Origin: a virus
Length of the DNA: 23,305 bases
Direction: 5' to 3' (one strand)
Virus record (IMG/VR): IMGVR_UViG_3300046777_001089
Coordinates: 1 to 23,305 of that record
Shown here in pieces: positions 2 to 13,337 of this stretch. Each line of letters starts with the position of its first letter. Position 1 is the first letter of the stretch. The notes under the pieces were generated by a model. It worked only from the letters and a program-made list of their open reading frames with translations. It ran no database searches and had not been told where the DNA came from. Both the position numbers and the translations under genes were made by a program.

Positions 2-316
2 ATCTATACGCTCCGGGAAGTCTCCGAGCCCGAGACCATGACCAGACCTCGCAAATACAACCGCGAGGTCGATTTCATGGTCGAGGGCATGGCGAAGGGC
101 ACCTCCGGGCTCGATAACACGCTCGACCAGATTGCGGTCGAGGTCGAAGAGGCTATGCTATCCGCTCCGACTTTCGATGGTCTGGCAAGAGATACTGTTT
201 TGTCTGGAACGGAAATTGACTATAATGCTGACGGAGAACAGCCTGTTGGCTCTATCCGAATGACATTCACGGTGCGCTACCGCACCAGCGAAACTGACGT
301 CGAAAGCGCATCGTGA
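2..316 (+). CDS. Tail terminator-like protein (5' partial)
   Basis: The reading frame is open from base 2, so the gene starts upstream of the window; the ATG at 38 is probably internal. The visible 104 residues resemble siphovirus tail terminator/tail completion proteins, which cap the tail tube at the head-proximal end and join it to the head. Supporting pattern: a helical stretch ending EVEEAML, then LSGTEIDYN, EQPVGSIRMTF and a closing VRYRT strand, the usual C-terminal half of this family. It lies 9 bp before the tail tube gene, the expected position. Family assignment is by pattern recognition and sequence similarity cannot be run here; the role is fairly secure from the gene order. Confidence 0.72.
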   Translation: MYTLREVSEPETMTRPRKYNREVDFMVEGMAKGTSGLDNTLDQIAVEVEEAMLSAPTFDGLARDTVLSGTEIDYNADGEQPVGSIRMTFTVRYRTSETDVESAS

Positions 317-325
317 GGCACGAAA

Positions 326-715
326 ATGGCTACTCATACCGGCTCTGAAGGTTTGGTTAAAATCAGCGCAAACACAATCGCAGAAGTGCGGTCGTGGACG
401 CTGACCGAAACTGCTGACACCATCGAAGACAGCACGATGGGCGATTCATACCGCACCTATAAGGTCGGCATGAAGACGTTCACGGGCTCGATCGTCTGCT
501 ATTGGGATGAGACCGACACAACGGGTCAAGGCGCTCTTACTGCTGGCGCATCGGTCACGCTCAACCTTTATCCAGAGGGTGCGACAACCGGCGACACCTA
601 TTATACCGGCACGGTCCTTGTCACATCGATCGAAGCCACGGCGGCTTTCGATGGCATGGTCGAAGCAACCTTCAGCTTCCAAGGCACCGGCGCTCTTTCG
701 AAGACCACTGCCTAA
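326..715 (+). CDS. Major tail tube protein
   Basis: This 129-aa protein is rich in beta-strand-forming Thr, Val and Gly. It has the hallmarks of small siphovirus tail tube proteins: an early strand containing VRSWTLTETADTIEDSTMGD, a central FTGSIVCYWD strand and a C-terminal VEATFSFQGTGAL, typical of the phage tail tube fold that polymerises in hexameric rings around the tape measure. It sits between the tail terminator and the tail assembly chaperone, the conserved position. The ATG at 326 follows GAGGCACGAAA, a modest ribosome binding site. An antisense frame of 177 codons overlaps it and is rejected. Fold and role are confident by family pattern; no structure prediction was run. Confidence 0.88.
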   Translation: MATHTGSEGLVKISANTIAEVRSWTLTETADTIEDSTMGDSYRTYKVGMKTFTGSIVCYWDETDTTGQGALTAGASVTLNLYPEGATTGDTYYTGTVLVTSIEATAAFDGMVEATFSFQGTGALSKTTA

Positions 716-739: not shown

Positions 740-1078
740 ATGTCCTCGCCTATCGAGCGCGCAAAAGCTCACTTCAAGGCGCAGAACGTCAAAACGATTG
801 AAGTTCCTGAATGGGGAGAGGCTGGAAAGCCTCTCCTTATTTATGCAACTCCTCTCACCTTGGCGGAAAAGCGCAAGCTTTTTAATGGTGCAAAAGAAAA
901 CGATCTGGCTGTTCTTGTCGATTGCATCATCATGAAAGCCAAGGATGAAAAGGGCGATGCAATTTTCACTCTTGAGCACAAGCGCGATCTAATGAACGGT
1001 GTCGATCCTGATATTATCGGCAGGATTTCGAATGAAATCTTGTCGGGACCATCGCAGGATGAACTGCTAAAAAACTGA
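740..1078 (+). CDS. Tail assembly chaperone, short (gpG-like) product
   Basis: This is the zero-frame product, 112 aa, acidic and helical, matching the gpG role in lambda: a chaperone that binds the tape measure and recruits tube subunits, and is absent from the virion. AAGGATCG precedes the ATG. It ends in a TGA at 1076-1078 directly after a heptanucleotide slippery site, and the -1 frame continues to 1233, giving a longer second product (separate entry). The core (residues ~20-100) contains LTLAEKRKLFNGAKEND and LVDCIIMKAKDEKGD, the pattern of small tail assembly chaperones with a DxxA/LVxxI...DxxG motif. Position between tube and tape measure is diagnostic. Confidence 0.85.
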   Translation: MSSPIERAKAHFKAQNVKTIEVPEWGEAGKPLLIYATPLTLAEKRKLFNGAKENDLAVLVDCIIMKAKDEKGDAIFTLEHKRDLMNGVDPDIIGRISNEILSGPSQDELLKN

Positions 1079-1233
1079 GATCCGATCACGAGCGTTTTGT
1101 AACTTTCGCGCTCGCTGATCGGCTTGGGAAAACAATTTCAGAAATAGAAGACCTTCCCTATTCTGAAATTATTGAATGGATGGCTTACATCGAACTTGTG
1201 AACGAGAGGCAGAGAAATGGCAGAAACGCTTAA
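740..1233 (+). CDS. Tail assembly chaperone, -1 frameshift (gpGT-like) fusion
   Basis: A -1 slip at 1069-1075 lets the ribosome pass the TGA at 1076 and read 52 further codons (from CTG at 1075) to TAA at 1231-1233, giving a 164-aa fusion. The added segment begins LRSDHERFVTFALADRLGKT and carries the motif EWMAYIELVNER, which resembles the gpT-type extension seen in many phages (EIxEWxAYxxL). This extension has no usable start codon of its own, which argues for frameshifting rather than a separate gene. It overlaps the tape measure start at 1217 by 17 nt, as in other siphoviruses. In lambda the GT product bridges the tape measure and the tail tube protein; that role is inferred here. Confidence 0.88.
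1069..1122 (+). promoter_or_regulatory. Programmed -1 ribosomal frameshift signal
   Basis: Slippery heptamer A AAA AAC at 1069-1075 lies exactly in the zero frame (cta aaa aac) just before the stop codon TGA. After a 6-nt spacer (1076-1081) comes a 13-bp stem: 5' arm CCGATCACGAGCG at 1082-1094 and 3' arm CGCTCG at 1109-1114 plus TGATCGG at 1116-1122, with only C1115 bulged and a 14-nt loop. Heptamer, spacer length and stem all match known -1 frameshift elements. A pseudoknot with the loop is possible but not obvious. Confidence 0.9.
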
Positions 1234-3055
1234 TTTCACGCTTTCGGCGCAGGATAAGACGCAAGCTGCATTCAATTCTGTCAATAAGAGCATGAACGGA
1301 CTCAACGGGTCTGTTACCAAACTCAAATCAGCATTGGCTCTTGTTGCGACCGCAGCCACATTTTCTGGCATCACAAAAGGTCTGCAAGGTGCGGTCGAGC
1401 GTGCAAGCAAGCTCGAAGAGGCAATGCAAAAGACAGGCGCATCTGCTGAGTTTCTTTCGAGCATTAGCTATGCGGCGAAGCTGGCAAGCGTCGAATTCGA
1501 TCAGCTTGAAAATGGTCTGATCAAGCTATCTAAAGCAATGGATGAGGCATCGTCTGATGTTAAGTCCGGCATTTCTTATGATTTTAAGCGTTTAGGAATA
1601 ACGGTCAGAGATTCAAACGGCGATCTTAAATCGACCGAAGAAATCTTTATGCAGATTGCCGACACTGTTTCTCAAGTTCCTGATGGAATGAGAAAAGCTG
1701 CGATCGCTCAAAAGATTTTTGGCAAGTCTGGTGCTGATCTTATTCCATTGCTCAATGAGGGCAGAGCTGGTCTTGAGAAATTAAGAAAAGAAGCCGAGAA
1801 CATGGGTGTTCAGTTCTCGAGCCAATCCGCAAAAGACCTTGCGGCATTTGGCGATGAGATGGACAAGATTGGCTTCTTGAGCCAAGGCTTTGCAAATACA
1901 TTTGCGGCAAGTGTTATCCCAGCTATTTCTTTATTCCTGCAAAAAATAGGTCAGACAGGAAATGAAGCAGAAAAATCTGAGCGCAAGTTCAATGGTTTGA
2001 AATCTGTTGCTGAAATGCTCGGCGCAGTATTCAGAGCAGTTGCGGCTGGCGTTTATGTGATCGGTTCAGCTTTCATTGAAGTTGGAAGAGATATCACAGC
2101 TTTCGTTCAGGCAATCGGCAGCGCTTTCGAACTTGATTTCGAAGGGGCTGGAAGGACTATTCGTGAACGAATTGCAGAACAGGTCAGCCTTTCAGATATC
2201 CTGAAAAATGCATCTGATATTATCAAAAATAATACTGATGCAAATGAAGAGAATGTTCTCACCATCAGGAAATCAACGAAAGCAATCGGAGACAATGGAA
2301 AAGCAACATCTGAGTTGCTTGATAAATATCGCTCCCTGATCGATCCGGGCTATGAAGTCCTTAAACAGATGAAGGAATTCACCAAGCTCGCCGAGGGTGG
2401 AGCCTTCACTGCCGAAGAGTTTGCGATAGGCATGGATCGTCTGCGCCAGCGCTTGATCGATGCTCGTGCCGAAACTGATCCAATGGCGATGGCCATCAAA
2501 GGATTGCAGGGCATGGTCCAGAGCTTCGCCGACAATGCTGCATCGGCGATGGCAGAATTTACCATGACCGGCAAAATGGATTTCAAGTCGATGGTCAATT
2601 CGATGATCAAAGACTTGCTGACGCTCTTCTATAAAATGACAATCTTCCAACCTATTTCTAATGCTTTCAAAGGATTCCTAAGTGGAGCCAGCACCGGTGG
2701 CGGTGGTGGTCTTTTTGAAAGCATCTCAAGCGGCGTAGGTGATTTCTTCTCTGGGTTATTCGGCAGGGCTGCCGGTGGATCGGTCATGGGCAGAACGCCT
2801 TATATGGTCGGCGAAAAAGGTCCAGAGCTTTTCATTCCCGGCGCTCATGGCACGATCATTCCGAATCAAAATCTCGGGATGGGCGGCGGCGAAAGCATCG
2901 TCATCAATCAAACGATCAATGTCTCGACCGGCGTACAAGCGACCGTCCGGGCTGAAATCCAAAGCCTCATGCCGCAGATCGCAACCGCAACAAAAAGCGC
3001 AGTCCTCGATGCTCGGCGTCGCGGCGGGGCATTCTCAACCGCATTCGGAGGCTAA
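1217..3055 (+). CDS. Tail tape measure protein
   Basis: The 612-aa product sits between the chaperone and the tail-tip genes. Evidence: an N-terminal helical segment with repeated Gln/Asn/Lys-rich heptads, a hydrophobic helix near residues 43-58, the module containing AAIAQKIFGKSGADLIPLL (typical of the tape measure core), further hydrophobic helices around residues 225-245 and 260-300, a Gly-rich linker, and the well-known C-terminal motif GRTPYMVGEKGPELFIPG followed by GTIIPN. Tape measures set tail length at about 0.15 nm per residue, suggesting a tail near 90 nm (inference). The start overlaps the frameshift product; AGAGGCAGAGAA precedes the ATG. No lysozyme or peptidase domain is visible within it. 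Confidence 0.93.
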   Translation: MAETLNFTLSAQDKTQAAFNSVNKSMNGLNGSVTKLKSALALVATAATFSGITKGLQGAVERASKLEEAMQKTGASAEFLSSISYAAKLASVEFDQLENGLIKLSKAMDEASSDVKSGISYDFKRLGITVRDSNGDLKSTEEIFMQIADTVSQVPDGMRKAAIAQKIFGKSGADLIPLLNEGRAGLEKLRKEAENMGVQFSSQSAKDLAAFGDEMDKIGFLSQGFANTFAASVIPAISLFLQKIGQTGNEAEKSERKFNGLKSVAEMLGAVFRAVAAGVYVIGSAFIEVGRDITAFVQAIGSAFELDFEGAGRTIRERIAEQVSLSDILKNASDIIKNNTDANEENVLTIRKSTKAIGDNGKATSELLDKYRSLIDPGYEVLKQMKEFTKLAEGGAFTAEEFAIGMDRLRQRLIDARAETDPMAMAIKGLQGMVQSFADNAASAMAEFTMTGKMDFKSMVNSMIKDLLTLFYKMTIFQPISNAFKGFLSGASTGGGGGLFESISSGVGDFFSGLFGRAAGGSVMGRTPYMVGEKGPELFIPGAHGTIIPNQNLGMGGGESIVINQTINVSTGVQATVRAEIQSLMPQIATATKSAVLDARRRGGAFSTAFGG

Positions 3056-3057
3056 GG

Positions 3058-3687
3058 GTGACGATCTCCTATCCGCTCTCTCTGCCGACCGTCGCCGGGA
3101 TCGCTCAAATCCGAATCACGGCTCGAAATGCGATCGCGGTCTCCTCGTCTCCGTTCACCTACAAGCAACAAGTGATGCAGCATCAAGGCGCCAGGTGGGA
3201 GGCGGAAATCAGCTTGCCTCCGACCCAGCGGGCCGATGCCGAGGAATGGATAGCCTTTCTATTCGCATTGCAGGGCCAGTACGGCACTTTTCTGCTCGGC
3301 GATCCTCTTGGCGCTACTCCTCGCGGGTCGGCGTCTACGACGCCGGGAACGCCGCTTGTGAACGGCGCAAGCCAGACCGGTGGAACGCTGGCGATCGATG
3401 GTCTGCCAAACAATGCCACCAACTATCTGCGGGCGGGCGATTATATCCAGCTCGGCAGCGGGGCCGGGTCTCGGCTCCATAAGGTCTTGGAAAATGCCTC
3501 TAGCAATGGCTCGGGCCAAGCGACGCTTTCGATCTGGCCGCAATTGCGGGAAAGCCCAGCCGATAATGCGGCGGTGACACTGAGCGATACAAAAGGCGTT
3601 TTTCGGCTGGCAACGCCGGAAAGCTCTTTCTCGATCAATGAGGCGTCATTCTACGGGATCACCTTCAGCGCATTCGAGGCCATCTGA
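3058..3687 (+). CDS. Distal tail / tail-tip protein (209 aa)
   Basis: The gene starts with GTG two bases after the tape measure stop and ends overlapping the next gene by one base (TGATG). It belongs to a common family of siphovirus tail proteins after the tape measure: beta-strands at the start (YPLSLPTVAGIAQIRI), a WEAEISLPP strand, then EEWIAFLFALQGQYGTFLLG, ending with a domain containing GDYIQLG and IWPQLRESPAD. The position matches distal tail (Dit-like) or gpM-like proteins linking the tube to the hub. The exact equivalent is uncertain; the general role in the tail tip is secure from context. Confidence 0.75.
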   Translation: MTISYPLSLPTVAGIAQIRITARNAIAVSSSPFTYKQQVMQHQGARWEAEISLPPTQRADAEEWIAFLFALQGQYGTFLLGDPLGATPRGSASTTPGTPLVNGASQTGGTLAIDGLPNNATNYLRAGDYIQLGSGAGSRLHKVLENASSNGSGQATLSIWPQLRESPADNAAVTLSDTKGVFRLATPESSFSINEASFYGITFSAFEAI

Positions 3688-4244
3688 TGTCGCGCGTTTT
3701 TTCGAGCAACTTCGCAGCCATCCTCGACAATCCGGTGATGTCGCCATTCTTGGCGGTCGAACTGCTTTTCGATAGTGGCGCGGTGCGGCTTTGGACGGGG
3801 CTCAAAGACCTTTCGGTCGGCGGGGTGACATATACCGGGGCCGGATCGCTTCTCGGCGTCTCGGCGGTCGAAGAAACATCAGAAGTCGCAGCCAGAGGCG
3901 CGAATATGACACTTTCAGGCATCCCGTCTGAAATCATCAGTCTGGCGCTTGGCGAAGATTACCAAGGCCGAACTGCAAAGGTCTATTTCGGGCTGATGAA
4001 TGTCACAAGCGGTCTGCCGGAAATGGTCGAAATCTTCTCTGGTCTTATGGATCAGATGAACATCGAGGACACCGGGCAGACGCTCACGGTCGAAATCACG
4101 GTCGAAAACAGACTGATCGATCTCGAGCGTCCGAGAGTTCGGCGATATACCAGCGAAGACCAGAAGCGGTTTTATCCAAACGATCTCGGCTTCGATTTCG
4201 TCAATGATCTACAGGACAAAGAAATTGTCTGGGGCCGAGGTTAA
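3687..4244 (+). CDS. Tail hub-like protein (gpL/DUF2163-like, 185 aa)
   Basis: The sequence pattern is that of a widespread phage tail protein: F..IL..PV..PFLAVEL.FDSG.VRLWTG, then a strand region with TYTGAGSLLGVS, EETSEVAARGANMTLSGIP, GR.AKVYFG, a later IFSGLMDQM segment, and a C-terminal RRYTSEDQKRF with terminal EIVWGRG. Related proteins form part of the tail hub between distal tail protein and peptidase. It is shorter than GTA gp13-type DUF2163 proteins because it lacks their C-terminal domain, so the name is only an analogy. It overlaps the previous gene by one base and the next gene by 20-41 bases depending on start choice. Confidence 0.72.
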   Translation: MSRVFSSNFAAILDNPVMSPFLAVELLFDSGAVRLWTGLKDLSVGGVTYTGAGSLLGVSAVEETSEVAARGANMTLSGIPSEIISLALGEDYQGRTAKVYFGLMNVTSGLPEMVEIFSGLMDQMNIEDTGQTLTVEITVENRLIDLERPRVRRYTSEDQKRFYPNDLGFDFVNDLQDKEIVWGRG

Positions 4245-4668
4245 AGTCCCGTTCTGGGAGAGAAAACTTTCAGAATATGTCGGATCGCTTGAATCCGAGC
4301 CTTTCGCATGGGGTCAACTAGACTGCGCGATCTTCGCCCATCAATGCTTGATCGTGCAATTTGGCAGCAGCAAAATTCCTGATTTTCGCGGGAAATATAA
4401 GACGATCAAAGGTGCCATATCTGCTCTCAAAAAGCAGTCCGGCTTTTCTAATCTGGAAGATGCGGTCTCAAGCTATCTCGATGAAATCAACCCTAAGCTC
4501 GCCCAGCGGGGTGACATCGTTTCGCTCAAGATCAACAATCCTCCGATCGAAGGAATAGGGTGCTCTCTCGGCGTCTGCATGGGCGCCCGTTATGCTGTCC
4601 TAACGACTCAAGGTGTGGCATATATTGAGTCGGCTCAGGTCGATCGAGCATGGAGGGCGGCAAGATGA
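4204..4668 (+). CDS. NlpC/P60-superfamily tail peptidase-like protein (DUF6950-like)
   Basis: This 154-aa protein contains the cysteine peptidase signature FAWGQLDCAIFA (predicted nucleophile Cys about residue 40), as in the DUF6950/NlpC-P60-like proteins encoded just before phage tail-tip proteins. Such enzymes (lambda gpK type) are thought to cleave peptidoglycan peptides during DNA entry or tail maturation. A second histidine partner is not obvious: the C-terminal half has RGDIVSL and GCSLGVCMGARYAV, but the usual G.HVGI His is replaced, so activity is uncertain. Start choice: ATG 4204 has no Shine-Dalgarno, whereas TTG 4225 has AGGA 8 nt upstream and would shorten the protein by 7 residues. 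It ends in an ATGA overlap with the tail-tip gene. Confidence 0.75.
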   Translation: MIYRTKKLSGAEVKVPFWERKLSEYVGSLESEPFAWGQLDCAIFAHQCLIVQFGSSKIPDFRGKYKTIKGAISALKKQSGFSNLEDAVSSYLDEINPKLAQRGDIVSLKINNPPIEGIGCSLGVCMGARYAVLTTQGVAYIESAQVDRAWRAAR

Positions 4669-12911: not shown

Positions 12912-13337
12912 TCAGTTCTCCTCTTTGATGTTTTCTGACTTCAGTCTTTCTTCGTGTTTTTGAATGCCATGCAGGATCGTCGTGTGATCTCGATTGAAGC
13001 GATTCCCGATCTCTGGGAGGCTCCAGCCAAGCTCGGTGCGGATCGTATAAAAGATTTCCTGCCGCACACGCACAAGCTCCCTTTTCCGATCCTCGCCAAG
13101 AATATCCTCGAATGAGACATCGTATTTTTTGCAGATATCCATTGCGATCTGTTTCCAAGCTGGTCGCTTAAAGATTTCTCTCGGCATCCTTTTTAGTTGC
13201 AACTCGAATTCATCGAGCGTCGGCTTTTTTGCAATCTCCTCTGGTTTTTCTTTCTGTTTTTTCAACGATTCCGCTTGCTCGGAAATCTTGTTTCGGAATG
13301 CAACGCGGCGCTCATGAATAACGCGAACAAGGTCCAT
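12912..13337 (-). CDS. DnaA domain IV-like DNA-binding protein (141 aa)
   Basis: Residues ~60-130 match the DNA-binding domain IV of the replication initiator DnaA: WKQIAMDICKKYDVSFEDIL, then IFYTIRTELGWSLPEIGNRF and the hallmark NRDHTTILHGIQKHEE (compare GRDHTTVLHA in DnaA). No AAA+ ATPase domain and no Walker motifs are present, so it cannot act as an initiator alone. The N-terminal ~58 residues are Lys/Glu-rich and helical. Stand-alone domains of this type occur in phages and prophages and may bind DnaA boxes of host or phage DNA to modulate replication or transcription (inference). ATG overlaps the stop of the upstream 55-aa gene (TAATG), so the pair is co-translated. Confidence 0.85.
   Translation of the reverse strand: MDLVRVIHERRVAFRNKISEQAESLKKQKEKPEEIAKKPTLDEFELQLKRMPREIFKRPAWKQIAMDICKKYDVSFEDILGEDRKRELVRVRQEIFYTIRTELGWSLPEIGNRFNRDHTTILHGIQKHEERLKSENIKEEN

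Follow-up and report, generated by a model that had tools for sequence, protein, structure and literature searches.

A very probable lambda G/GT-type -1 frameshift in the tail assembly chaperone gene of a phage from a little-studied aquatic group

Introduction

G/GT frameshifting is textbook knowledge for long-tailed phages, and the -1 frameshift of phage lambda G/GT was reportedly described by Levin in 1993 and by Xu in 2004. The lambda system has been reviewed, with a gpG:gpGT ratio of about 30:1 (PMC5009743), and reporters of two HK97-type chaperone genes gave 6-7% frameshifting (PMC3711429). The slippery sequence A_AAA_AAC is listed for the g-t genes of the archaeal virus HCTV-2 (PMC5009743), and a tail chaperone gene in which the stop codon immediately follows A AAA AAC was published in 2017 for Acinetobacter phage Loki (PMC5313236). 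Some bacterial dnaX genes also have a stop directly after the frameshift site (PMC5009743), and the distance from heptamer to stop averages 26 nt in the PRFect training phages and 36 nt in the phages compiled by Xu et al. (PMC10885494). An adjacent stop codon is at the short end of the known distances, but it is not new.

The DNA analysed here (hereafter the window, the whole stretch of 23,305 nt of a virus contig) encodes a tail assembly chaperone, G, which is very probably extended into a longer product, GT, by a -1 programmed ribosomal frameshift of the lambda G/GT type. A -1 frameshift in this gene had been proposed by a first-pass annotation and is now backed by homology, selection, synteny and predicted fold.

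Locus organization and frameshift signal

According to Pfam and PHROG assignments, the gene order is tube protein, G/T and tape measure protein, so that G/T lies between both, the position of a G/GT-type pair. The features are as follows.

38..316, + strand: tail terminator (PHROG 4204, E 2.8e-15; gene start uncertain, the frame being open to the window edge)
326..715, + strand: major tail (tube) protein, directly upstream of G (PF06199, E 2e-6; PHROG 1407, E 7.6e-18)
740..1078, + strand: G, tail assembly chaperone, zero-frame product of 112 aa (open reading frame; PHROG 16513; AlphaFold model)
1056..1059, + strand: candidate Shine-Dalgarno-like AGGA, 9 nt 5' of the heptamer (weak in the window itself)
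1069..1075, + strand: slippery heptamer A AAA AAC (window sequence; same register in all near relatives)
1076..1078, + strand: zero-frame stop TGA, adjoining the heptamer (window sequence)
1075..1233, + strand: T, -1 frame extension of 52 codons plus TAA, the GT fusion having 164 aa (translation, PHROG, pN/pS)
1082..1122, + strand: predicted hairpin of 13 Watson-Crick pairs and one G-U pair, with bulged C1115 and a 12-nt loop (fold, codon shuffles)
1217..3055, + strand: tail tape measure protein, its start overlapping the end of T (PF09718, E 1.3e-9; PHROG tail length tape measure families)

The 3' end of the open reading frame at 740-1078 reads ...CTG CTA AAA AAC TGA, and the signal can be seen directly in the sequence. 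The first-pass annotation had described A AAA AAC in the zero frame at 1069-1075, a stop codon directly 3' of it, a 6-nt spacer and a 52-codon -1 extension with no start codon of its own, and each of these agrees with the window sequence: the heptamer is exact, the stop is TGA at 1076-1078, the spacer covers positions 1076-1081, and the extension takes up 1075-1230 and is followed by TAA at 1231-1233. An upstream stop in the -1 frame lies at 1060-1062, and from there to the middle of T the frame holds no ATG, GTG or TTG; its first start-type codon is the ATG of the residues EWMAY, too late to start T. The T sequence is LRSDHERF...EWMAYIELVNERQRNGRNA, and at the GT junction ...ELLKN is followed by LRSDHER.

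Elsewhere in the window, a baseplate-hub-like gene (3687-4244, + strand, weak PF09931 match) shares 41 bases with a DUF6950 gene (4204-4668, + strand), and a 141-aa protein encoded at 12912-13337 (- strand), which sits among phage replication genes, carries a DnaA C-terminal DNA-binding domain (PF08299, E 9.5e-19) and no AAA+ part. A megablast search of the window (1-23305) against 50,697 phage records gave no match, and a scan of bacterial genomes for GT found no relative, and thus no prophage or host.

Homology and coding status of G and T

Residues 5-156 of the GT fusion match PHROG 16513, "tail assembly chaperone" (E 3.8e-13). G by itself matches this family more weakly (E 4.6e-6), and the match of T by itself is to PHROG 337, "tail protein" (E 3.4e-7). 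T alone had no match in Pfam, and Pfam and NCBIfam together gave no significant family for G or T. By tblastn, both halves have relatives in isolate phages of Roseobacter, Pelagibacter and Sinorhizobium, the G half also in Rhodobacter phages, and the GT fusion aligns end to end with isolate phages. Homologues of the -1 extension in other phages, whose absence the first reading had named as the result that would speak against it, are therefore clearly present.

In the PDB, the best match to the model of G built by AlphaFold (pLDDT 83.8) is 2ob9, the tail assembly chaperone of HK97 (Foldseek probability 1.00, E 4e-3), and the VIA comparison of the two gives Z 9.2 over 100 residues with an rmsd of 3.7, the next row after 2ob9 being 3klu (YqbN, Z 7.3). 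Named matches of the model in a viral library include the tail assembly chaperones of RcRhea and of Arthrobacter phage Salgado.

The coding status of T is directly supported by its pattern of change. In five near sequences, namely the window and four relatives with 86-94% protein identity, T has a pN/pS of 0.147 when read in the -1 frame, the two other frames giving 1.4 and 3.0, and the value for G is 0.121. T and G are both under purifying selection.

Conservation across the family

The survey covered 170 loci, of which 80 are roseophage-type contigs and 90 are others (the window, 9 isolate phages and 80 contigs). T lies in the -1 frame in all 80 roseophage-type loci, and in the set of 90 every T match adjoining G is in the -1 frame, with three loci having no T match and one a distant chance match; none of the 170 was seen to have G and T in a single frame. 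Grouping at 85% nucleotide identity gave 53 clusters, which share descent and consist mostly of metagenome contigs, so that counts over them are not counts of independent events. G identity to the window falls to 26-30% among these clusters, and a 13-sequence protein alignment contained no stretch conserved enough for a motif scan.

An in-frame slippery heptamer near the stop is present in 53/53 clusters: A AAA AAC in 31, A AAA AAG in 8, G GGA AAC in 7, A AAA AAT in 4 and A AAA AAA in 3, with A AAA AAC in all 80 roseophage-type loci. The heptamer of the window, which had been called a notable variant, is thus the commonest one of its own family, besides being published for HCTV-2 and Loki. The stop adjoins the heptamer in 49/53 clusters, its identity varying among TAA, TAG and TGA. 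By itself AAAAAAC is not rare, with 7 occurrences in the window against 3.4 expected; the combination of heptamer and stop is far above chance, a slippery heptamer forming the last two codons before the stop in those 49 clusters, whereas such heptamers account for 0.32% of codons in the rest of the same genes. What appears constant across the family, judging from these alignments, is the heptamer with its adjacent stop, and the predicted hairpin comes and goes.

The main gain of the analysis is in annotation, the -1 half of the tail chaperone being missing from several deposited relatives among the roseophages and Pelagibacter phages. The expectation that gene callers miss the extension is seen to hold in GenBank records: T is absent from those of CRP-811, CRP-831, CRP-406, DSL-LC06, HTVC026P and HTVC202P, in HTVC112P an antisense call (gp41) stands in its place, and phi3LM21_p41 is a call of the C-terminal part of T only. 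The RcCronus record has a properly joined (frameshifted) chaperone at the same place. The loci with T missing or miscalled are L004 (1903-2049), L008 (1893-2003), L002, L003, L005-L007 and L009.

Candidate stimulators of frameshifting

The predicted hairpin downstream of the heptamer has its arms at 1082-1095 and at 1108-1114 plus 1116-1122, with 14 pairs in all including G-U. It consists of CCGATCA/TGATCGG (7 pairs), the bulged C1115, CGAGCG/CGCTCG (6 pairs) and a terminal U-G, which agrees with the 13-bp stem with one bulged base first described at 1082-1122 and adds one wobble pair to it. The 55-nt fold has a minimum free energy of -21.6 kcal/mol, with z -2.8 against dinucleotide shuffles; when codons are shuffled and the T protein is left unchanged, z is -3.2 and 2 of 200 shuffles fold as well. 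The structure begins 6 nt after the heptamer, within the range of about 5-9 nt for -1 frameshifting with a downstream RNA stimulator. In codon shuffles, z runs from -2.9 to -4.2 in the clade of the window and from -3.4 to -4.5 in its sister clade (L019-L026); a few roseophage-type contigs also fold exceptionally, and most other relatives do not.

Synonymous change in the clade of the window is scarce within the stem. The 3' arm shows none in 50 comparisons and the 5' arm 8 in 40, hence 8 synonymous differences in 90 comparisons for the two arms together, all of them in a single CGN codon at the top pair, compared with 0.36 per comparison in G. The sister clade keeps the lower helix, in which a single compensatory change turns A-U into C-G. 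Its upper helix is built anew, one base out of register, from different codons that still encode A-L-A; because of this shift, an RNAalifold consensus computed over both clades recovers chiefly the lower helix. Covariation is weak, amounting to the one compensatory pair, with further pair types no better than in shuffles, and the support for the hairpin was not rested on it. An Rfam search of the window gave no match. From fold energy and synonymous constraint, the hairpin is taken as a real, clade-specific stimulator, probably acting in the clade of the window and its sister. The importance first attached to the long stem holds for these two clades and does not extend to a family-wide requirement; as the stem is missing in many relatives, it may not be needed.

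A second candidate, absent from the first reading, lies upstream. Many relatives (L002-L174) carry GAGG(A) 6-7 nt 5' of the heptamer, 10-20 nt upstream of the G stop, and the codon choice there is biased: GAG is favoured at the glutamate of the element (31 GAG to 10 GAA, against 181 to 244 elsewhere, p 6e-5), and GAA at the glutamates neighbouring it. A 4-nt Shine-Dalgarno match 5-9 nt upstream occurs in 36/53 clusters, against 21.2 +/- 2.8 (maximum 30) in 1000 synonymous shuffles. The window itself has only AGGA, 9 nt 5' of the heptamer, which is weak. The spacing of GAGG in the relatives is about one codon closer to the heptamer than in dnaX. Stimulators resembling Shine-Dalgarno sequences have been described in dnaX, and the share of IS elements with one is estimated at 56% (PMC5009743), and the element is possibly a stimulator of frameshifting in many relatives as well.

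Mechanism and alternative explanations

The -1 programmed ribosomal frameshift would proceed as follows. Most ribosomes would stop at TGA and release the 112-aa chaperone G, and in a minority the tRNA-Lys and tRNA-Asn on A AAA AAC would slip back by one base, giving the 164-aa G-T fusion. In the clade of the window, ribosomes would be delayed by the downstream hairpin, as well as by the stop codon, which would occupy the A site or be on the point of entering it. Weak Shine-Dalgarno-like pairing upstream might add to the delay. GT would presumably be made at low frequency, as the ratio of about 30:1 in lambda and the values for the two HK97-type chaperone genes suggest. By analogy with lambda, many G and few GT molecules may coat the tape measure protein, with T recruiting the tail tube protein encoded just upstream. 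A point against slippage at this site is that ribosomes of E. coli shift far less readily on A AAA AAC than on A AAA AAG (PMC5009743).

Other ways of relating G and T have to be weighed against this. T might be a separate protein, initiated at a start codon of its own or by ribosomes that terminate at the end of G and reinitiate there, all the more as Shine-Dalgarno sequences just before gene ends can serve reinitiation (PMC5009743) and 15/53 clusters have some ATG, GTG or TTG in the -1 frame within the tested stretch. However, 38/53 clusters have none from the upstream -1 stop to T codon 12, the window reaches its first start-type codon only in EWMAY, reinitiation would not keep a slippery heptamer in 53/53 clusters, and PHROG 16513 spans G and T as one protein, so that a separate T is highly improbable. 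Equally improbable is transcriptional slippage on the A run, with mRNAs losing or gaining bases. Runs of 8-10 A do occur in some relatives, and reporters with poly-A tracts of 7-11 showed frameshifting at 10-63% (PMC3711429), but the run in the window is of just six A followed by C, the 7/53 clusters with G GGA AAC lack a long homopolymer, and several sequences keep a Shine-Dalgarno-like element or a hairpin, both of which act on ribosomes.

A homopolymer is a usual place of indel errors and the window is a virus contig, and G and T could on that account be taken for one open reading frame broken by a sequencing or assembly error, or for a decaying pseudogene. Nevertheless, G and T stand in this frame relation, with a heptamer preceding the stop, in more than 160 contigs and also in isolate genomes, the stop is TAA in some sequences and TAG or TGA in others, and purifying selection acts on both T and G; this reading is already refuted by the relatives and deserves practically no credence. 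A variant that we consider unlikely, though worth stating, is a termination-coupled -1 shift, in which the stop would wait in the A site with the last sense codon in the P site while GAGG pulls the ribosome back. The evidence for such coupling is purely positional, consisting of the adjacent stop in 49/53 clusters and of GAGG 6-7 nt upstream of the heptamer. If it applied, the G:GT ratio would depend on release-factor activity, and the downstream hairpin would be a dispensable addition in some clades.

Comparison with known systems

The -1 frameshift proposed for the window resembles that of lambda in its position between tube and tape measure genes, in giving a short and a -1 extended form, and in having an X XXY YYZ heptamer shortly before G ends. 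In contrast, lambda uses G GGA AAG with 15 nt from heptamer to stop, whereas the window has A AAA AAC, an adjacent stop and a long predicted hairpin. In phage Loki, the record of gp12/gp13 confirms A AAA AAC adjoining the stop, the -1 extension is annotated as joined, and a downstream hairpin is likewise predicted (-19.1 kcal/mol for 60 nt); the extension is much longer than in the window. Loki gp12 was also considered as a homologue of the window chaperone and rejected, the two being not detectably related (hhalign probability 0.35%).

Among relatives, Rhodobacter phage RcCronus (Cronusvirus) shares a homologous G half (26% identity), a stop adjacent to the heptamer and a T of 46 aa, but its heptamer is G GGA AAC and its hairpin is not exceptional for its codons (z -0.6). 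The CRP-822-type roseophages (PMC12629253) and the Pelagibacter HTVC phages (GenBank) have homologous G and T halves, with the stop immediately following A AAA AAC or A AAA AAG; unlike the window, most are without a significant hairpin and many have GAGG 6-7 nt upstream. The HK97 chaperone 2ob9 is like the G model in structure, yet the two share 17% identity and a sequence-profile search of the PDB gave no match.

The window very probably carries another system of the lambda G/GT type, a well-known device, in a little-studied aquatic phage group. With its fixed heptamer and stop and its variable hairpin, the family offers a natural set of sequences in which to look for the stimulator that governs the G:GT ratio.
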